Below, piece after piece: positions 10,904 through 40,343 of a DNA stretch of 40,430 nucleotides. The translations under genes and the position numbers were made by a program. Source of the stretch: Longimicrobium sp. (GTDB taxonomy: Bacteria > Gemmatimonadota > Gemmatimonadetes > Longimicrobiales > Longimicrobiaceae); contig NZ_DATIND010000039.1 in assembly GCF_035474595.1 (NCBI RefSeq), positions 1-40,430 of the forward strand, given 5' to 3'. Under the pieces are notes generated by a model, which did not search any database, had not been told where the DNA came from, and saw nothing but the letters and a program-made list of their open reading frames with translations. Each line of letters opens with the position of its first letter. Position 1 is the first letter of the stretch.

Positions 10904-12361
10904 TCACCGGTACGCCCGGGCGGCCTGCACCGCCGCGTAGGCGTCCGCGTAGCCGGTGCCCTGCTCCCAGAGAGCGTAGCCGGGCTGCGGGCGGGCGGTG
11001 TTCTCCAGGATCGTTTCCACCTGGTCGGGCGTGAGCCTGCCGCCCGCGGCCTCCTGCATCAGCGCCACCACGCCGGCGATGTGCGGCGCGGCCATCGACG
11101 TGCCCGACATGCAGGTGAAGTCGTCGAGGTTCTGGAAGCCGATGTTGCAGGCGTTCAGGTCGCTGGTGATGCCCAGCGGCGCCACCACGCCGGTCGACGA
11201 GCGCGCCGACACGATGCGCACGCCCGGCGCGGTCACGTCGGGGTGCAGCAGCGGGTCGCCCGCCACGCCGCGCGACGAGAAGCCCGCCAGCACCGGCGCG
11301 CGGCCCGTGGCGTCCACACACTGCGACGCGGAGTTGGTGGGGTCGAGCACGAACAGCTTGCACCCGGCGGCCACGCTGATCACCCACGGCGCCACGCTCA
11401 GGTAGTTCATGGTGTTGGCCGCCGGCCCGTCGTTCCCCGCGGCGAAGACCACGGTGATGCCGGCGTCGTGCACCGACTTCATGGCCTCGATCACCGGGTC
11501 GGTGGGATCGAAGTCGCCGGTGCCGCCCCAGGAGTTGTTCACCACCTTGATGTTGTACTTCACGCGGTGGTCGATCATCCAGTCCACCGCCTGCAGCACC
11601 GAGGCGTACACGATCTCCAGCGTCTCGCCCGCGCTCAGGCCGATGAGGCTGGCGCCCGGGGCCACGCCGCGGTACGCGCCGAAGCTGGTGCCGCCGTTCC
11701 CCGCCGCGATGCCGGCCACGTGCGTGCCGTGCCCGCCGGTGTTGTCGGTGTTGGGAAGGTTCTCCACCGCCAGCTCGCCGCCGGGGCGCGGAAGGCTGGT
11801 CGTATCGTCCGTCAGGTAGGCGAAGTTCAGCGTGAACTTCACGTTGGCGACGGTCTTCGTCGGATACGCGACGTCGGAGTTCAGCCCGTTGATGCCGCTG
11901 TCGAGGATGGCGATGCCCACGCCCTTCCCCGTGATGCCGCCGTTCCACGCCATGTCGGCGCGAAGCGACTGCGTGCTCTCGCGCAGGAGGGTGGGAACGG
12001 CGCGGTTGGCGTAGATGCTCTGCACGCCGCCGAGCCCCGCCATCGCCTGGATCTGCGCGGGGGTGCCGAGGGTAACGAGCATCGACAGGTTGCGGAAGGT
12101 CATCACCCCGGCGCCGAGGCGCATCACCTGGTTGGCGATGGCGAGCTTCGAGGTCTTGGCCGGATCGAAGTTCACGATGGCGACCAGCTGCTGCGCGGGC
12201 GCCGCCACGGCCAGCGCGCTCGCCAGCTTCGCGTCGATCTTCGGCCCGCTGGCGACCGTCGCCAGCCGGGCGGGTCCGGCCGGGGCGACCGCCGTGGGCT
12301 GCGCATCGTTGCATGCCGCCAGCGCCAGCGCGGCCAGGGAAAGAAGGAGAGTCCGCTGCAT
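10904..12361 (-). CDS. Subtilisin-like (S8) serine protease lipoprotein, tandem copy 1
   Basis: This 485-residue lipoprotein precursor has lipobox LAAC with Cys17. Residues about 45-125 are an N-terminal pro-region-like beta domain. The S8 catalytic domain has Asp154 (AILDSGI), His211 (GGHGTHVAG), oxyanion Asn310 (FAAGNDGP) and Ser422 (MSGTSMAAPH), so the triad is complete. It should be anchored to a membrane facing the periplasm or surface and degrade proteins. It is a paralogue of the next gene upstream on this strand (12543-13985), sharing NIKVVNNSWG, SVAPWVISVAAGCK and DPTNSAS almost exactly. This indicates a tandem duplication. The ATG at 12361 lacks a strong ribosome site, so it may be translated from a shared transcript. 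Confidence 0.92.
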   Translation of the reverse strand: MQRTLLLSLAALALAACNDAQPTAVAPAGPARLATVASGPKIDAKLASALAVAAPAQQLVAIVNFDPAKTSKLAIANQVMRLGAGVMTFRNLSMLVTLGTPAQIQAMAGLGGVQSIYANRAVPTLLRESTQSLRADMAWNGGITGKGVGIAILDSGINGLNSDVAYPTKTVANVKFTLNFAYLTDDTTSLPRPGGELAVENLPNTDNTGGHGTHVAGIAAGNGGTSFGAYRGVAPGASLIGLSAGETLEIVYASVLQAVDWMIDHRVKYNIKVVNNSWGGTGDFDPTDPVIEAMKSVHDAGITVVFAAGNDGPAANTMNYLSVAPWVISVAAGCKLFVLDPTNSASQCVDATGRAPVLAGFSSRGVAGDPLLHPDVTAPGVRIVSARSSTGVVAPLGITSDLNACNIGFQNLDDFTCMSGTSMAAPHIAGVVALMQEAAGGRLTPDQVETILENTARPQPGYALWEQGTGYADAYAAVQAARAYR

Positions 12362-12445
12362 CGTTCCGCGTCGTCCGTCATCAGGTTGCGGCCGCCACCG
12401 GGTGCGGCGGCCGAGGTTCGTTCATCTTCGCGTCTCCAGACTCCG

Positions 12446-12519
12446 CCAGGTCTCACGCGGAGGCGCGGAGCCGCGGAGGCGTGTCCCCGGCACCTCCGCG
12501 TCTCCGCGTGAGATCCAGG
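12446..12519. repeat. Palindromic dispersed repeat, copy C
   Basis: Same CTCACGCGGAG ... CACCTCCGCGTCTCCGCG TGAGATCCAG arrangement as copies A and B. It fills most of the 180-bp spacer between the two subtilase genes and could weaken transcription from the upstream gene into the downstream one. Confidence 0.7.
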
Positions 12520-12542
12520 GGTGCCGGGGAGACGCGGAAGCG

Positions 12543-13985
12543 CTACCGCCGCACTGACATCACCGCCGAGTAGGCGTCCAGGTAGCCGGCGCCCGCCTCC
12601 CACTCGCCGTAGTACGGCATCGTGCGGGCGCTCTTCGTGATCGCGCGGTAGACCTGGTCGGGAGTGAGCCTGCCGCGCGCGGCCTCCTGCATCAGCGCGA
12701 TGGTGCCGACCACGTGCGGCGTGGCCATCGACGTCCCGCTCATGCACGTGTAGTACGGCACGAACGTGGTGGGGATGGCGCAGTCCAGCGCGTCGCTGGG
12801 CGCGTTCAGCGCGTTCATGGGCGTGCCCGTGCTGGCGCGGGCCGACACGATGTTGGCGCCCGGCGCGGTGATGTCCGGATGGTACAGCGGATCGTTGCGG
12901 ATGCCGCGCGACGAGAAGTCGGCCAGCATCGAGGTCCCGCCCGCGCAGAGCGAGGCGGAGTTGGTGGGGTCGGGGGAGACCGTCTTGCACCCTGCGGCCA
13001 CGCTGATCACCCACGGAGCAACGCTGTACGGATTCAGCGTGTTCTCCCCCGGCCCGTCGTTCCCCGCGGCGAACACCACCGCGATACCCGCCTTGTAGAC
13101 CGCCTTCGTGGCCACGTTGGTGGGGTCGTTCGGATCGAACGTTCCGCTCGAGCCCCACGAGTTGTTGACCACCTTGATGTTGTACTTCGCGGCGTTGTCG
13201 ATCAGCCAGTCGAAGCCGGCCAGCGCCCAGAACACCACGATCGTCTCGCCGGTGCTGATGCCCACCAGGTTCGCGCCCGGCGCCACGCCCGTGTACTTGC
13301 CGGCCGACGACGCGCCCGAGCCGCCCACGATTCCCGCCACGTGCGTCCCGTGCCCGCCGGTGAGGTCGGTGTTGGGGACGTTCTCCACGAACAGGTTCGC
13401 CCCGACGGCGGGAAGCGTCTCGTCCTGCGTCACCAGGTCCTTCATGCTTCCCAGCACCTTCACGTTCTGCACGACGTGCTCGGGATAGTGCACGTCGGGG
13501 TTGAACAGCCCGTCGATGCCGCTGTCGAGAATGGCCACGCCGATCCCCTTCCCCGTGTAGCCGGCCACGCGCGCCAGGTTGGCGCGGATGCTGGGGACGC
13601 TCTCGGCCAGGAACCACTTCAGCTGCTTGTTCGAGTAGAGCGAGACCACGCCCGGCACCGCGGAGATGCGAGTGATCTGCGCGGGGTTGGCCACGGCCGC
13701 CACGATCGGGAGGTGCTTGAAGCGGATGATCCCCGCGCCGGTGGCCCGTACGGCGCTGGCGACGGCGTCGCCGCTCGCGAGGCTGTCGTACGTCACCAGC
13801 ACCTCGAGCTGGTCCAGCGGCCCGGCCAGCGCGAGCGCCGAGGTGAGCACCGGGTCCACGTCCACGCCCGGGGCGAGGGTGACGCGGTGCAGGGTGTTGG
13901 GGGCGCGGTCCGGCCCCAGCGGCTGTGGGTCGTTGCACCCCGCGGCCAGTGCGGCAACCGCCGCGAGCGCGAGCCAGCGTTTCAT
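12543..13985 (-). CDS. Subtilisin-like (S8) serine protease lipoprotein, tandem copy 2
   Basis: This 480-residue precursor starts at the ATG at 13985, which has GGAGGAC upstream. A longer frame lacks a signal peptide. Residues 1-17 form a lipoprotein signal (AALAAGC, Cys17). Residues about 45-125 are a pro-domain-like region. The catalytic residues are Asp154 (AILDSGI), His212 (GGHGTHVAG), Asn309 (AAGNDGP) and Ser419 (MSGTSMATPH). The C-terminal helix region is RLTPDQVYRAITKSARTM. A membrane-anchored exported protease is the likely role. It forms a tandem pair with the gene at 10904-12361, is first in transcription order, and carries the better ribosome site. Confidence 0.92.
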   Translation of the reverse strand: MKRWLALAAVAALAAGCNDPQPLGPDRAPNTLHRVTLAPGVDVDPVLTSALALAGPLDQLEVLVTYDSLASGDAVASAVRATGAGIIRFKHLPIVAAVANPAQITRISAVPGVVSLYSNKQLKWFLAESVPSIRANLARVAGYTGKGIGVAILDSGIDGLFNPDVHYPEHVVQNVKVLGSMKDLVTQDETLPAVGANLFVENVPNTDLTGGHGTHVAGIVGGSGASSAGKYTGVAPGANLVGISTGETIVVFWALAGFDWLIDNAAKYNIKVVNNSWGSSGTFDPNDPTNVATKAVYKAGIAVVFAAGNDGPGENTLNPYSVAPWVISVAAGCKTVSPDPTNSASLCAGGTSMLADFSSRGIRNDPLYHPDITAPGANIVSARASTGTPMNALNAPSDALDCAIPTTFVPYYTCMSGTSMATPHVVGTIALMQEAARGRLTPDQVYRAITKSARTMPYYGEWEAGAGYLDAYSAVMSVRR

Positions 13986-14385
13986 CGTGCGTCCTCCAGC
14001 GTGACCGAGTGTGAACCCGTGAGCGTTGCGTTCCGTGCCCCGAGGAAAGGCAATCGCGGGTCCACGTGCCATCTCCCCTGCACCGCTTTGGTGAAACTGC
14101 GGAATTCGGAAGATGGGGATGAGAGGAGATGAAGATGAACGGATGGGGGTGGATCCGCATCGCAAGTCGATGCGATAAAAGTTTTTGGATCAGATCGAGG
14201 AAGACGGATGACGGATCGTCGCGGCGCGGGCGGGGAGTGGGGAGGATGCCGAAAAACGGGATCGCTCGGCGCGACATCGTGTGCGATGTGCAGCATCGCC
14301 GATCAGGCTAATTTCACATTAATGGTGCAGAACGGATTCGCATTTCGGTGAATCCAGTCGGGGCACGGCGCGTGCTCTGTCATCG
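13986..14385. other. Divergent intergenic region between subtilase and HD-GYP genes
   Basis: No gene is seen. It should hold both promoters. The AT-rich stretch near 14290-14330 (CTAATTTCACATTAATGG) is the most promoter-like part for the rightward gene, but no convincing -35 is present. A short inverted repeat (GCATCG/CGATGC, 14157-14173) is followed by AAAAGTTTTTGG. Confidence 0.3.
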
Positions 14386-15849
14386 TTGAAACGGTTTCTC
14401 GATCTCCTTCGCGGACGGGCACGGGCAAAGATGGCGACCCACGTCGAAGCACAGCTGGCCGCCGGCACTCCGCCGGAGGACCCGGTCCTTTCCCTGCTCG
14501 ACGCCGCGGCCGAGGCGTACCGGATGCACGACGGCGCGCTGCGCGGCGAGCTGGCGATGGCGCAGGCCGACGCGCGCTCGTCATCGGCGGAGGCGGAGCG
14601 CTGGCGCGCCGAGGCGCAGTCGGCCGAGGCGGACGCGGAGTCGCTGCGCGGCGAGGTGCGCGCGGTCCGGAGCGAGCTGGAGGGCGCTCACCTGGCATTC
14701 CAGCGGCAGCGCGAGCGCGCCGAGACGCTCAGGCACGCGCTGGTGAGCGTGCACCGCGCGCTGTTCGGGGGGAACGTCTACGAGATGATCCTGCGCGCGT
14801 GCATGCAGATCACCGGCGCCACGCGCGGCCTGTACATCTCCTCGCGCGCGGGCGGGCGGATGCGCGTGCGAGCGGCGCACGACGTGGACGGATATCCCGA
14901 CGCCGACCCGTCGCCCTTCATCTGCGCGCTCAGCCGCCGCGTGATTGACCGCAACGAGCCGGTGGTGTGCAACGACGGCACCGACAACGGCGTCGCCGAC
15001 ATCCCCGCCCCCACCTCCGACGGCGAGCGCTTCCGCAATCTCGTCGTCAGCCCGGTGGTGGTCATGCAGGACCTGGACGGCGTGGTGATCGTGGGCGACA
15101 AGCAGGGCGGCGGCTTCGACCCCAACGACGTGGAGACGCTGCTTTCGGTGGGCCACCACGCCGGCGTGGCGGTGGAGAACCGGCGGCTGGAGCAGGCGCT
15201 GCAGATGGCGTACGTGTCCACCGTGAGCATCCTGGCCGACGCGGTGGAGGCCAAGGACCCGTACACGCACGGCCACTGCGAGATGGCGTCGCGGTACGCG
15301 CGGCTGGTGGCGGGGCGGATGGGGCTGACGCCGCAGGAGCAGGCGGTGGTGTGCTACTCGGCGCTGCTGCACGACGTGGGAAAGATCGGCGTGAGCGACG
15401 GGGTGCTGAACAAGCCCGGGCCGCTGCTGCCGGAGGAGATGGAGCTGATGCGCGCGCACGTGCGGGTGGGGCACGACCTGCTGCGCAACGTGCCCGTGCT
15501 GCAGCCGGTGGCCGACGTGGTGCTGCACCACCACGAGCGCTACGACGGCGACGGCTATCCCGACGGCCTGCGCGGCGACGAGATCCCGCTTCCCGCGCGG
15601 ATCGTGGCGGTGGTGGACGCCTACTGCGCCATGATCACGCGGCGCAGCTACAAGGAGGCCTACACCGAGGACCACGCACGCGACGAGATCCGCCGCTGCG
15701 CCGGCAGCCAGTTCGACCCGGGCGTGGTCGACGCCTTCCTGCAGGTGCTGGAGACCCCCGAGGCCGACGATCCGGACGAGGACGCCTGGGCCGAGTGCCT
15801 GGTCCTTCCCGGGCTGGCGGACCGGCAGCTGCTGCGCAAGGCGTCGTAG
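14386..15849 (+). CDS. GAF and HD-GYP domain protein, putative cyclic-di-GMP phosphodiesterase
   Basis: The 487-residue product has an N-terminal coiled-coil stretch (about 40-120, Ala/Glu/Arg-rich) and a GAF sensor domain (about 120-270, ending SVGHHAGVAVENRRL). The HD-GYP domain covers about 280-460, with HD at 329-330 (ALLHDVGKIG), HHERYDGDGYPDGL at 381-394 and ARIVAVVDAYCAM. HD-GYP enzymes hydrolyse cyclic-di-GMP to pGpG or GMP. The usual DxxDALT is DAYCAMI here, a minor deviation. It is cytosolic, with no transmembrane segment. It converges on a GGDEF cyclase gene (16609-17856), giving a make/break pair separated by a dead RAYT copy. The TTG start is uncertain; the ATG at 14431 would remove 15 residues. 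Confidence 0.88.
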   Translation: MKRFLDLLRGRARAKMATHVEAQLAAGTPPEDPVLSLLDAAAEAYRMHDGALRGELAMAQADARSSSAEAERWRAEAQSAEADAESLRGEVRAVRSELEGAHLAFQRQRERAETLRHALVSVHRALFGGNVYEMILRACMQITGATRGLYISSRAGGRMRVRAAHDVDGYPDADPSPFICALSRRVIDRNEPVVCNDGTDNGVADIPAPTSDGERFRNLVVSPVVVMQDLDGVVIVGDKQGGGFDPNDVETLLSVGHHAGVAVENRRLEQALQMAYVSTVSILADAVEAKDPYTHGHCEMASRYARLVAGRMGLTPQEQAVVCYSALLHDVGKIGVSDGVLNKPGPLLPEEMELMRAHVRVGHDLLRNVPVLQPVADVVLHHHERYDGDGYPDGLRGDEIPLPARIVAVVDAYCAMITRRSYKEAYTEDHARDEIRRCAGSQFDPGVVDAFLQVLETPEADDPDEDAWAECLVLPGLADRQLLRKAS

Positions 15850-16608: not shown

Positions 16609-17856
16609 CTACCGGCAGCCGCGGGCGCGCTTCACCTCGTACAGCGCGCGGTCGGCGTCGCGGACGAGCTCGTCGGGCGAGGCGATCTCGGGGCGGTACT
16701 CGGCCACGCCGGCGCTGACCCCCACCGACCCGTTCAGCCGCATGCGCACCCGCTCGGCCAGCGAGTGCGCGGCCGCTGCGTTCCCGCCGGGAAGGATGGC
16801 CAGGAACTCGTCGCCGCCGTAGCGCACCACCACGTCGCTTCCGCGCGCCTCGGAGCGCAGGACGTCGGCCACCTGGCAGAGCACGCGGTCGCCGGCCTGG
16901 TGCCCCTGCGCGTCGTTCACCGCCTTGAAGCCGTCCAGGTCCAGCACCATCACCGCCAGCGGTTCGCCGCGCCGGGCCGAGGCCCACGCGTGCTCCATCA
17001 CCACGTCCATGTGGCGGCGGTTGGCCAGGCCCGTGAGCGAGTCGGTGAGGGAAAGGCTGCGCACGCTCTCGATCAGCCGGATGCGGCGGAGCGCCATCTC
17101 GGCCTGCAGCGCCAGCGCACGCATCACGTCCCAGTCCTCGGGCTCGAAGACGCGGTCCTCGCGGCGCTCGGTCAGCACCAGCACGCCCTCGTCGGCCACG
17201 GGAACGTGGGCCACCTGCGACGTGGCGGGGTCGCCGAAGAGCGGCGCGGCCACCGCGCAGGGGCCGCCGGCGCGCGCGTCCAGCGCCTGCATCAGCCCCG
17301 GCTCGGCGAAGCGCGGGTCCCACAGGAGGCAGGCGCGGTACTCCGTCGGCGCGGCGCCGGGGCGGGCGGGGGCGCGCAGCATCCCGCGCGCGGGCTCGCG
17401 GACGAACGCCAGCGAGGTGTGCGCGCCCACGATGCGCAGCGCGTGCTCGGCCAGCGCGCGGAACACCTCGTCCTCGGCCGCGGCGGCGTTCAGCTCCTCG
17501 AAGTAGGCGATGAGCTGGTCCGGAAGGCGCTGGCGCTTCAGCTGCCGCATCCGCTCCTGCCGCAGCGCGGCGATGCGCGCGCGCGCCTGGGCCAGCAGGT
17601 CGCCCTCGCCCTCGCAGGGAAGGCGCCAGGTGCCGGACGCGGCCAGCAGCACCCCCTCTTCGGGGCCCGATTCCAGGAGCAGCACCAGGTCCTGCACGTC
17701 GGCAGGCACTTCGATCATCTGCTCGACCGCGGCGCGCACGGCCTGCCGCGGCCCGCGCTCGTCGTGCGCGGGCGCGCGCGTGCCATCCGCGATCCACCGC
17801 GTGGGCGTGGCCATGAGCACGCCCAGCGTCCGGTCGTCTCCGCGCCGCAATCGCAT
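16609..17856 (-). CDS. GAF-GGDEF diguanylate cyclase
   Basis: The product is 415 residues from the ATG at 17856, with GGGAGGAC as ribosome site. The overlapping TTG at 17859 is less likely. Residues about 110-255 resemble a GAF sensor domain, ending ALALQAEMALRRIRLIESV. Residues about 260-415 form a GGDEF domain: LTDSLTGLANRRHMD, VMVLDLDGFKAVND, active-site RYGGDEF (GGDEF at 347-351) and the inhibitory I-site RGSD at 338-341. The enzyme should condense two GTP to cyclic-di-GMP with product inhibition. It is soluble. It is controlled from a well-defined promoter with a leader hairpin (17877-17914). The HD-GYP gene opposite could remove its product. Confidence 0.92.
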   Translation of the reverse strand: MRLRRGDDRTLGVLMATPTRWIADGTRAPAHDERGPRQAVRAAVEQMIEVPADVQDLVLLLESGPEEGVLLAASGTWRLPCEGEGDLLAQARARIAALRQERMRQLKRQRLPDQLIAYFEELNAAAAEDEVFRALAEHALRIVGAHTSLAFVREPARGMLRAPARPGAAPTEYRACLLWDPRFAEPGLMQALDARAGGPCAVAAPLFGDPATSQVAHVPVADEGVLVLTERREDRVFEPEDWDVMRALALQAEMALRRIRLIESVRSLSLTDSLTGLANRRHMDVVMEHAWASARRGEPLAVMVLDLDGFKAVNDAQGHQAGDRVLCQVADVLRSEARGSDVVVRYGGDEFLAILPGGNAAAAHSLAERVRMRLNGSVGVSAGVAEYRPEIASPDELVRDADRALYEVKRARGCR

Positions 17857-17867
17857 CAAGGTCCTCC

Positions 17868-17914
17868 CAAAAGAAAACGGGCCGATCCGTCCCGAAACCG
17901 ACAGATCCGCCCGT
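17868..17914 (-). terminator. Terminator-like hairpin in the GGDEF leader
   Basis: On the minus strand ACGGGC, GATC and GTC pair with GAC, GATC and GCCCGT (17877-17914), interrupted by two single mismatches. TTTTCTTTT follows directly. The stem stands immediately before the ribosome site of the GGDEF gene, as in a transcription attenuator. The roughly 35 nt between the predicted transcript start and this stem do not match a riboswitch class I know, including the GEMM cyclic-di-GMP aptamers. Confidence 0.5.
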
Positions 17915-17945
17915 ACCCAAAGACCAGCTAAGCTATTGCCTTCAT

Positions 17946-17957
17946 TTGGCTTGCCAA
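17946..17957. promoter_or_regulatory. Possible operator at the GGDEF transcription start
   Basis: TTGGC TT GCCAA is a 12-bp inverted repeat overlapping the edge of the -10 box and the predicted start site. That is a suitable place for a repressor. Confidence 0.35.
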
Positions 17958-17984
17958 TATAAACGTGTTCCCTAAATGCGTCAA
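17956..17984 (-). promoter_or_regulatory. Near-consensus sigma-70 promoter of the GGDEF gene
   Basis: On the minus strand TTGACG (17979-17984) and TATATT (17956-17961) are separated by exactly 17 bp. It stands out as AT-rich in an otherwise GC-rich window. The predicted leader is about 90 nt. Confidence 0.75.
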
Positions 17985-18425
17985 TCGGTGTCCTCGCACG
18001 GGGACGGCCATCCAGAAATTCAACATTCCCGCGTTCGCGCAGGGTTCAAAAAAGGTGACGGAGCAGGGCACGGTTCGGCGGCGCACCCCGTCCGCGGGCG
18101 ACGATCAAGGCTGAGGATGACCGGAGCCCACGTCACCAGACGCCGAGATTCATCGACAGCCGCTCAGGATCTCAGGAACGCGAAAGAGCCCTGCATTCAC
18201 GAGAGATGCAGGGGTTCATTTCGCCACGGCACTTCACATCGGAGGCGAAGGAAACGCCAGGCCGACGCTTGCGCCGTCGCATGCGGGAGTGCGCAACTTA
18301 CTCGTTATACAATCTTTTCGGGATAATCCTTGCGCGGAGTTCAGGGAGGAGCTACTCTGGACTTACGATAAGGTGTGCTCCTAAAGGAGCGCACTCGTAG
18401 AAACTCATTATGAGGAGAGTGGCGC
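17985..18425. other. Intergenic region upstream of the third subtilase
   Basis: No gene is seen. It contains an 8-bp stem (CCCTGCAT/ATGCAGGG, 18189-18213), an AT-rich stretch TCGTTATACAATCTTTTC near 18303-18318 that could hold a -10 box, and a hairpin at 18373-18394 in the probable leader. No good -35 box was found at the right spacing. Confidence 0.35.
18373..18394 (+). promoter_or_regulatory. Leader hairpin upstream of the third subtilase
   Basis: GTGTGCTCC and GGAGCGCAC form a 9-bp stem with a TAAA loop (one G-T wobble). The stem ends 17 bases before the GGAG ribosome site at 18414-18417. It could stabilise the transcript or affect translation; this is inference. Confidence 0.4.
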
Positions 18426-20018
18426 ATGAGAAACAAGTGGTTGCACTGGGCGGCGGCCTCACTGCTGGTGGCGCTCGCCGCCTGCGCCGACGAGGTAACG
18501 AGGCCCGACCTGCGGGCGCCGCAGGCATCACGCACTTCGCGCCGGGGCGACGTCGTACCGGACCGCTACATCGTCGTCTTCCGGGAGACGGTCGGCGATG
18601 CGCCCGGGCTGGCGCGGCAGCTCGTGGCGGCGCACGGAGGGACGCGGCACTATACCTACCAGCACGCGCTGAAAGGCTTCGCCGCCACCCTTCCCTCCTC
18701 CGCCATCGAGGCGCTGCGGCACAATCCCAACGTCGCCTACGTCGAGCCGGACCGGGTGGCGGCCCTCGACCAGACCGCGCAGCCGAGCCCCGTCTGGAAC
18801 CTGGACCGGGTGGACCAGCGCCGTCTGCCGATGGACGGCACCTACTACTACGCCTGGGCGGGCGCCGGCGTCACGGCGTACATCATCGACACGGGGATCC
18901 AGACGTCGCACCCGGAGTTCGGCGGGCGCGCGCAGGTGGGCTACGATGCATTCGGGGGGAACGGCCAGGATTGCACCGGCCACGGGACGCACGTGGCGGG
19001 CACCGTGGGCGGCGCCACGTACGGCGTGGCGAAAGCGGTGAAGCTGGTGTCGGTGCGCGTCTTCGAATGCACGAACACCACCACCTGGTCGGCGGTGATC
19101 GCCGGCATCGACTGGGTGCGCCTGCATCACCAGACGCCCGCCGTGGCCAACCTGTCGCTCGGCGGCGCCGCGGACTCGGTGGTGGACGCCGCCGTGCGCA
19201 ACCTGATCGCCAGCGGCATCACCGTGGTGGTGTCGGCCGGGAACGATGCGGCGGACGCGTGCAACTACTCGCCCGCGCGCGTGGCCGAGGCGCTGACCGT
19301 GGGCGCGACCGACCAGACGGACCAGCGGACGTCGTTCTCCAACATCGGTAGCTGCCTGGACGTGTTCGCGCCGGGGATGAACATCACCTCGGCGTGGATC
19401 AACGGAGGCTCCAACACGATCAACGGCACGTCGATGGCCGCTCCGCACGCCACGGGTCACGTAGCCCTGTTCCTCCAGGAAAAACCGGCCGCGACCACCA
19501 TCGAGACACGTGATCGGGTCGTCGCCAACGCCACACCCGGCCTCGTGACCTCGGCAGGCGCGGCGTCGCCCAATCGACTGCTGAATACGCGGCTAGGCCG
19601 GGACTACGGCGCACGTTCGCCCGTGCACCGGACCTATCAACCATACTTGGTAGACCATAGCTACTCGCTCGCGCCGGGCGCGCTGGATTATCCGCTCGAG
19701 AAGCTCGACTACTTCTACACGGCGAGCGATTCCTCCGCCGGGCACATTCCCCTGTACCGCTGCAGAGACCAGACCTACTACAATCGCAACCTGCTTTCCG
19801 TGAACGGCAGCTGCGGGATCTTCACGCAGGGCGTGCTCCAGGGCTACATCGCGACCTCACAGGTCACCGGCACCGTGCCGCTGTACCGGGTCTACCATCC
19901 GGGGTATCATGACAATCTGTACACCAAGAGCATTACGGAGGTGCAGGACAAGGTGGCCAACGCCGGGTACGTCGATAAGGGCATCATAGGCTACGTGTAC
20001 AACACGCCGTCACCCTGA
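18426..20018 (+). CDS. Proteinase K-like S8 protease lipoprotein with I9 propeptide and C-terminal beta domain
   Basis: The 530-residue precursor has lipobox LAAC (Cys20). Residues about 47-115 form an inhibitor-I9 propeptide (RYIVVFRE ... NVAYVEPDR). The catalytic domain has Asp155 (AYIIDTGI), His186 (GHGTHVAGTVGG), Asn273 (SAGNDAAD) and Ser336 (NGTSMAAPH). This is the compact arrangement of proteinase K and aqualysin, not that of the two minus-strand subtilases. Residues about 400-530 contain two similar units (IPLYRC ... and VPLYRVYHPGYHDNLYTKS), resembling DUF5648-type domains found after secreted enzymes. GAGGAG lies 8 bases before the ATG. An exported, lipid-anchored protease is expected. 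Confidence 0.92.
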   Translation: MRNKWLHWAAASLLVALAACADEVTRPDLRAPQASRTSRRGDVVPDRYIVVFRETVGDAPGLARQLVAAHGGTRHYTYQHALKGFAATLPSSAIEALRHNPNVAYVEPDRVAALDQTAQPSPVWNLDRVDQRRLPMDGTYYYAWAGAGVTAYIIDTGIQTSHPEFGGRAQVGYDAFGGNGQDCTGHGTHVAGTVGGATYGVAKAVKLVSVRVFECTNTTTWSAVIAGIDWVRLHHQTPAVANLSLGGAADSVVDAAVRNLIASGITVVVSAGNDAADACNYSPARVAEALTVGATDQTDQRTSFSNIGSCLDVFAPGMNITSAWINGGSNTINGTSMAAPHATGHVALFLQEKPAATTIETRDRVVANATPGLVTSAGAASPNRLLNTRLGRDYGARSPVHRTYQPYLVDHSYSLAPGALDYPLEKLDYFYTASDSSAGHIPLYRCRDQTYYNRNLLSVNGSCGIFTQGVLQGYIATSQVTGTVPLYRVYHPGYHDNLYTKSITEVQDKVANAGYVDKGIIGYVYNTPSP

Positions 20019-39822: not shown

Positions 39823-39845
39823 CAGCGCAACAGCGGAGGCGGAGG
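39823..39845. repeat. tRNA-Ser 3'-end repeat, copy III
   Basis: This is the intact locus: downstream flank, discriminator, acceptor strand and first part of the T-stem of tRNA-Ser(CGA). Tyrosine-recombinase integrases usually target this part of tRNA genes. Confidence 0.6.
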
Positions 39846-39916
39846 GACTCGAACCCCCAAGGGCTTGCGCCCGCCGCATTTCGAGTGCGGTGCCTTACCA
39901 GTTAGACTACGCCTCC
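39834..39916 (-). tRNA. tRNA-Ser (anticodon CGA)
   Basis: The acceptor pairs GGAGGCG with CGCCTCC. The anticodon stem is CCGCA/TGCGG with loop CTCGAAA, giving CGA for codon UCG. The long variable arm (GGGC/GCCC) is that of a serine tRNA. T-loop TTCGAGT. The length is 83 nt without CCA. Confidence 0.9.
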
Positions 39917-39937
39917 AGAACTACTCCGACTTCTCAG

Positions 39938-40011
39938 TCGGGACGGCCGGATTTGAACCGGCGACCCCTCGCTCCCGAAGCGAGTGCTCTACCGGGCTGA
40001 GCCACGTCCCG
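39938..40011 (-). tRNA. tRNA-Pro (anticodon CGG)
   Basis: Acceptor CGGGACG/CGTCCCG. Anticodon stem CTCGC/GCGAG with loop TTCGGGA, giving CGG for codon CCG. T-loop TTCAAAT. Length 74 nt. Confidence 0.92.
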
Positions 40012-40046
40012 AAGCCCTTTGTGCCACACCTGCACCTGCATCCGAA

Positions 40047-40133
40047 CGGACCGGGTGGGATTCGAACCCACGAGGGCTGTTACACCCCACACGATTTCCA
40101 ATCGTGCTCCTTAAGCCGCTCGGACACCGGTCC
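40047..40133 (-). tRNA. tRNA-Ser (anticodon GGA)
   Basis: Acceptor GGACCGG/CCGGTCC. Anticodon stem CACGA/TCGTG with loop TTGGAAA, giving GGA for UCC and UCU. Long variable arm. Length 87 nt. Confidence 0.93.
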
Positions 40134-40142
40134 AGGGCGGAG

Positions 40143-40229
40143 CGGAGAGGGCGGGATTCGAACCCGCGTCTGCCTTTTGAGCAGGACGGTTTAGCAAACC
40201 GTTGGTTTTAGCCACTCACCCACCTCTCC
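40143..40229 (-). tRNA. tRNA-Ser (anticodon GCT)
   Basis: Acceptor GGAGAGG/CCTCTCC. Anticodon stem ACGGT/ACCGT with loop TTGCTAA, giving GCT for AGC and AGU. Long variable arm (CCTGCTC/AAGGCAG region). Length 87 nt. Confidence 0.93.
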
Positions 40230-40270
40230 ATGCCAGTACGCGCGCGGTCAGCCCACCGCGTGCGCCCGAG

Positions 40271-40343
40271 TTGCCCCCCCAGGGCTCGAACCTGGACTTT
40301 CCTGATCCAGAGTCAGGCGTGTTGCCAGTTACACCAAGGGGCA
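40271..40343 (-). tRNA. tRNA-Gln (anticodon CTG)
   Basis: Acceptor TGCCCCT with GGGGGCA (one wobble). Anticodon stem CCTGA/TCAGG with loop CTCTGGA, giving CTG for CAG. T-loop TTCGAGC. Length 73 nt. Confidence 0.9.

Follow-up and report, generated by a model that had tools for sequence, protein, structure and literature searches.

A conserved dyad beside the promoter of a diguanylate cyclase gene in Longimicrobium sp., with a terminator-like leader hairpin shared by its closest orthologs

Attenuation at intrinsic terminators of 5′ leaders is known from the trp and pyr systems and from the expression platforms of riboswitches, and factor-dependent sigma70 promoters whose dyad lies immediately before the −35 box are known as well. 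In the open-licence literature we found no description of attenuation of a cyclase gene in Gemmatimonadota and no study of c-di-GMP control in the Longimicrobium group. The locus described here lies in the window, that is, the whole 40,430-nt stretch of DNA that was analysed, corresponding to contig C39 of a draft genome of 6.57 Mb. An earlier note on this DNA had read the leader of its diguanylate cyclase gene as a ligand-sensing attenuator. Comparison of orthologs suggests that control at the promoter and at a dyad upstream of the −35 box, which the note leaves unmentioned, is better supported than ligand attenuation; it is there that the conservation sits.

The cyclase gene occupies positions 16609-17856 on the minus strand. 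Its start codon is the ATG at 17856 (MRLRR, conserved in the ortholog protein alignment) and not the TTG at 17859. The encoded protein carries a C-terminal GGDEF domain (Pfam E = 7.8e-39), which supports the enzyme identity proposed earlier; by sequence it is a diguanylate cyclase of GAF-like/GGDEF type, with c-di-GMP synthesis predicted. The motif is intact, and all 13 aligned orthologs share residues G347, G348, D349, E350, and F351 without change. An RxxD motif five residues ahead of it is conserved to the same extent (13/13), and we take this to be the inhibitory site of the cyclase. The structure model (mean pLDDT 76.6, pTM 0.49) places a helix-strand domain at about residues 126-265, preceding GGDEF. 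In fold comparison the model comes closest to sensor-linked cyclases, a bacteriophytochrome cyclase among them, and the TM-scores over the whole chain are low (0.33). Pfam reports no GAF match in the cyclase, and we infer from the model that the middle domain is GAF-like. The N-terminal 54 residues have low model confidence and carry a conserved MxxRRxEDR.

Downstream lies a plus-strand gene for a GAF-HD-GYP-type HD-domain protein (14386-15849; Pfam HD_5 1.7e-35, GAF_2 1.5e-10). Such a gene adjoins the cyclase in 11 of 14 ortholog loci and is convergent with it in 10 of the 14; in one of the loci counted (L192) the cyclase was identified otherwise than by the ORF picker. The HD-GYP-type upstream regions examined contain no match to the cyclase promoter, with the gene start uncertain in most loci. 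The neighbour upstream of the cyclase is divergent in the window, and no regulator gene is conserved among the cyclase neighbours of the 14 loci. On either side of the cyclase/HD-GYP pair are subtilase-like genes for secreted proteins, three in all (10904-14165 and 18426-20018); the one at 18426-20018 was checked against Pfam and the other two were assigned by reading only. The gap separating the cyclase promoter from the divergent subtilase contains a 9-bp terminator-like stem (18189-18213) with no obvious gene owner. Elsewhere in the window, five tRNA genes are clustered on the minus strand at 39834-40343.

The cyclase promoter consists of a −35 hexamer TTGACG (17979-17984, minus strand) and a −10 hexamer TATATT (17956-17961, minus strand) separated by 17 bp, within the 16-18 bp usual for sigma70-type hexamers, and it matches the consensus at 10 of 12 bases. 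It is the sole promoter-like site in 17500-18300, where shuffles expect 0.1, and the near-consensus promoter proposed earlier stands. Transcription is predicted to start at about 17949, giving a leader of 93 nt to the ATG, in line with the length of about 90 nt claimed before. The inverted repeat TTGGC-AA-GCCAA that the earlier note placed over the start point is indeed there (17957-17946, minus strand), but it is not conserved; a perfect 5+5 dyad occurs in only 1 of 12 orthologous leaders, and the repeat was ruled out as an operator. Further into the transcript, at about +10 to +23, is an AA-N5-TA element (here GGCAATAGCTTAGC; 17927-17940, minus strand), whose columns A73, A74, T80, and A81 are at least 90% identical in the 12-ortholog alignment; in the orthologs the element falls at about +14 to +22. 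Its reverse strand resembles a −10 box; this candidate was dropped, with no −35 box seen.

Upstream of the −35 box is the dyad CCGTCC-CCGTGCGA-GGACAC (17988-18007, minus strand), centred at about −48.5, a putative transcription-factor site. Cyclase orthologs were found at E<=1e-60 in 14 of 21 family genomes, and TTGAC with a −10 box could be located upstream of 12; the upstream sequences of the other two (L019 and L020) show no such promoter. Common to these 12, which span four genera, are the dyad GTCC-N8-GGAC, TTGAC, a 17-bp spacer with AACA, and AA-N5-TA. As the search for the sites relied on TTGAC and the best −10 match, these letters are partly selected, whereas the dyad, AACA, and the downstream element are not. 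With that qualification for TTGAC and the −10 letters, the invariant letters of the 12-ortholog promoter alignment are GTC, GAC, TTGAC, ACA, TA, T, and A, and AA-N5-TA is nearly so. On average, 4.0 of 6 arm pairs form at the fixed dyad axis in the 12 orthologs, versus 0.2-2.8 at 99 other axes tried. When the axis is allowed to float, each ortholog forms 3-6 of 6 pairs, the dyad of L021 reaching only 3. The distance from dyad to −35 box is 4-5 bp, that is, it floats by 1 bp among orthologs. Pairing that peaks at one axis while the distance to the −35 box floats is as expected for a separate protein site. A conserved dyad in a set place beside the promoter is the arrangement of a transcription-factor operator, and binding of a protein is predicted.

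Searches for further copies returned little beyond the cyclase genes. A profile built from the nine members of one genus picks out the cyclase promoters in three other genera (E = 5e-12, 3e-7, and 1e-4). Below E 0.8 it gives no additional match, whether in those loci, in two more loci of the family, or in 400 kb of the source genome. A model built from all 12 promoters (R1) detects only those 12 below E 0.03 in the 21 family genomes; in 146 genomes of the order, matches at E<=0.01 occur in 12 genomes, exactly its own members. Recovery of the 12 follows by construction, and the absence of other matches does not; 150 first-look candidates per genome were scored in the family and 30 in the order, a depth that could overlook weak sites. 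In the 21 genomes, the exact pattern GTCC-N8-GGAC-N4,5-TTGAC matches eight times, seven of them at cyclase orthologs, against four for the reversed control; one match of the site pattern lies in G008:C53. A wider regulon was dropped, as neither the pattern nor R1 gave further clear sites. Within the sensitivity of these searches, the promoter site appears specific to the cyclase gene and to the family, at one copy per genome.

The leader carries a terminator-like hairpin (17877-17914, minus strand) of 14 bp with one 1×1 mismatch and an 8-nt loop, folding at −26.4 kcal/mol. It is followed directly by the U-tract TTTTCTTTT (17869-17877, minus strand) and then by a Shine-Dalgarno-like GGGAGGA (17862-17868, minus strand); the stem and U-tract reported previously before the ribosome site are thus borne out, in the GC-rich arrangement of an intrinsic terminator. 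For the whole leader the predicted folding energy is −38.1 kcal/mol, a z of −2.94 that is matched by 2 of 200 shuffles. In 440 kb comprising the window and 400 kb of the same genome, 12 of 201 heuristically called genes have a terminator-like site within 90 nt upstream, and the cyclase hairpin ranks first of the 201 gene starts, with the most net pairs (13) and the shortest distance to the start codon (18 nt). Fold z alone is less special, 7 of the 201 background leaders reaching −2.9 and 20 reaching −2. The layout does exist, and it is an uncommon one for this genome.

Among orthologs, the hairpin is confined to near relatives. Under a terminator rule requiring at least 5 T, a clear terminator is present in 3 of 12 orthologous leaders, those of the window (L008) and its two closest orthologs (L009 and L010; protein identity 81% and 71%), which retain the hairpin with arms that partly differ in sequence and with U-tracts of their own. 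Shuffled sequences score as well in 5 of 1000 cases for L008, 11 of 1000 for L009, and 123 of 1000 for L010, which is weaker by this control. The leader of L012 passes with a poor stem (155/1000), and the remaining eight fail. Mean fold z over the 12 leaders is −0.5 versus a background of −0.3. In a MAFFT alignment, the 14 stem pairs of L008 and L009 show one double change, four one-sided changes, and two broken pairs, no better than shuffles (247 of 500 as good), while the true register is 92.6% paired versus 37-52% for slid registers. A consensus fold of nine leaders has seven pairs and −1.36 kcal/mol; at four pairs one or more leaders carry a double change, and the covariation term is 0.06. 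Covariation in the leader is absent or uninformative, and the conserved leader structure that the attenuation proposal looked for is largely missing. Short ATG frames (eg, MKAIA in L008) were rejected as leader peptides; they vary in length, have no ribosome site, and are missing from other leaders.

Evidence for a ligand sensor was sought by family searches and folding. Rfam at gathering scores reports only tRNAs in the whole window, and at E<=10 over 17800-18420 it yields one unrelated chance match and no GEMM-I, GEMM-I variant, or GEMM-II, in keeping with the earlier remark that the leader matches neither GEMM class. A riboswitch at the cyclase leader was dropped on these scans of the window and leader region. 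About 35 nt separate the predicted start point from the hairpin, and prefix folds of the L008-L010 leaders give only weak early structures and no stable competing antiterminator; one stabilized by a protein is possible. Given the short lead-in, the lack of a family match or of a stable competing fold in the prefixes, and the fact that 3 of 12 leaders have a clear terminator, ligand attenuation is an unproven reading that the comparison mostly fails to support.

GEMM-I type aptamers do occur elsewhere in the source genome. Rfam identifies nine in seven stretches (L209-L215, on contigs C103, C25, C156, C64, C155, C14, and C48), three of them c-di-GMP-I-GGC and two forming a tandem pair in L215; 31 of 61 genomes searched have some. 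The following gene was scanned for eight of the nine, the first copy of the tandem being left out. Two of the genes are GH26-like and one is Ig-like with polysaccharide-lyase similarity; the others encode a PilZ glycosyltransferase, an M23 peptidase, a subtilase, a protein with one weak CARDB match, and one with no match. No cyclase is among the eight, which include genes for secreted hydrolases.

We lean, with modest confidence, towards a combined explanation in which the cyclase would be switched mainly at transcription initiation. A putative dimeric transcription factor would bind just upstream of the −35 box of a sigma70-type promoter, and the spacer AACA and the early-transcript AA-N5-TA would belong to the same control region. 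The position of the dyad near −48.5 suggests that the factor is most likely an activator. In the sub-clade of the window (3 of 12 orthologs), the leader terminator would stop some transcripts short of the ribosome site, lowering basal output, perhaps conditionally. The near-consensus hexamers might need no activator, and the factor could be a repressor; an activator also usually has more than one target, which counts against one serving a single gene. The two orthologs that lack the promoter, the poorly paired dyad of L021, and the lack of a conserved regulator among the neighbouring genes weigh against this explanation too. That the promoter region is instead conserved as an alternative sigma-factor promoter, with an accidental dyad, would fit conservation running through the spacer and early transcript, but the −35 and −10 hexamers fit the housekeeping consensus, the symmetry is specific to one axis that floats against the −35 box, and there is one copy per genome; we consider this very improbable.

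The leader hairpin itself admits other roles. In the sub-clade where it occurs, it might act as the main switch, with an RNA-binding antiterminator protein or a small ligand opening it. Its first rank among 201 gene starts for a hairpin and U-tract by the ribosome site argues for such attenuation, as does its retention in the two closest orthologs with partly changed arms and separate U-tracts. Moreover, the genes upstream of the cyclase in L008, L009, and L010 are oriented away from it (in L010 there is only a small ORF), so a terminator could act only on the cyclase's own transcript. Regulated attenuation is nevertheless unlikely given the three clear terminators in 12 leaders, pair changes matched by shuffles, a consensus fold with a covariation term of about 0, and the lack of an Rfam match or stable competing structure. 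We are similarly doubtful of a constitutive role for the hairpin as an insulator or mRNA stabilizer, with the U-rich stretch mainly aiding ribosome loading. L012 is also U-rich directly before the ribosome site without a good stem, and by eye the leaders of L014 and L015 could form a hairpin at the corresponding position that lacks a U-tract, both consistent with that role; in L008-L010, however, the U-tract follows the hairpin with no gap, the arrangement required for intrinsic termination. Less probable still is a dedicated one-target factor, perhaps reading c-di-GMP, at the promoter together with a sub-clade antiterminator or ligand that opens a leader terminator outside Rfam. For initiation control by a dimeric factor, the reading we prefer, the 20-bp dyad at one copy per genome offers a precise handle for finding the cyclase regulator. 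The leader in turn illustrates that an attenuator-like layout may be shared by only a few species, and it cautions against calling a riboswitch from layout alone.

Set beside known systems, the protein resembles GAF-GGDEF diguanylate cyclases in its GGDEF motif, the RxxD five residues before it, and the inferred GAF-like fold that precedes them, and differs in the low-confidence 54-residue N-terminus with its MxxRRxEDR. With c-di-GMP-I riboswitches (GEMM-I, RF01051, RF03167) the common ground is the c-di-GMP pathway and the nine copies elsewhere in the genome, whereas the cyclase leader has no match at E<=10 and the eight GEMM-I downstream genes checked are not cyclases. Like attenuators of the trp, pyr, and riboswitch type, the locus has a promoter, a short leader, and a GC-rich hairpin with a U-tract before the ribosome site, but no aptamer or antiterminator fold was found and the arrangement is conserved only in the nearest species. 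Compared with factor-dependent sigma70 promoters, it differs in a putative factor with apparently one target per genome, and is alike in the dyad centred near −48.5, the consensus-like hexamers, and the 17-bp spacer.
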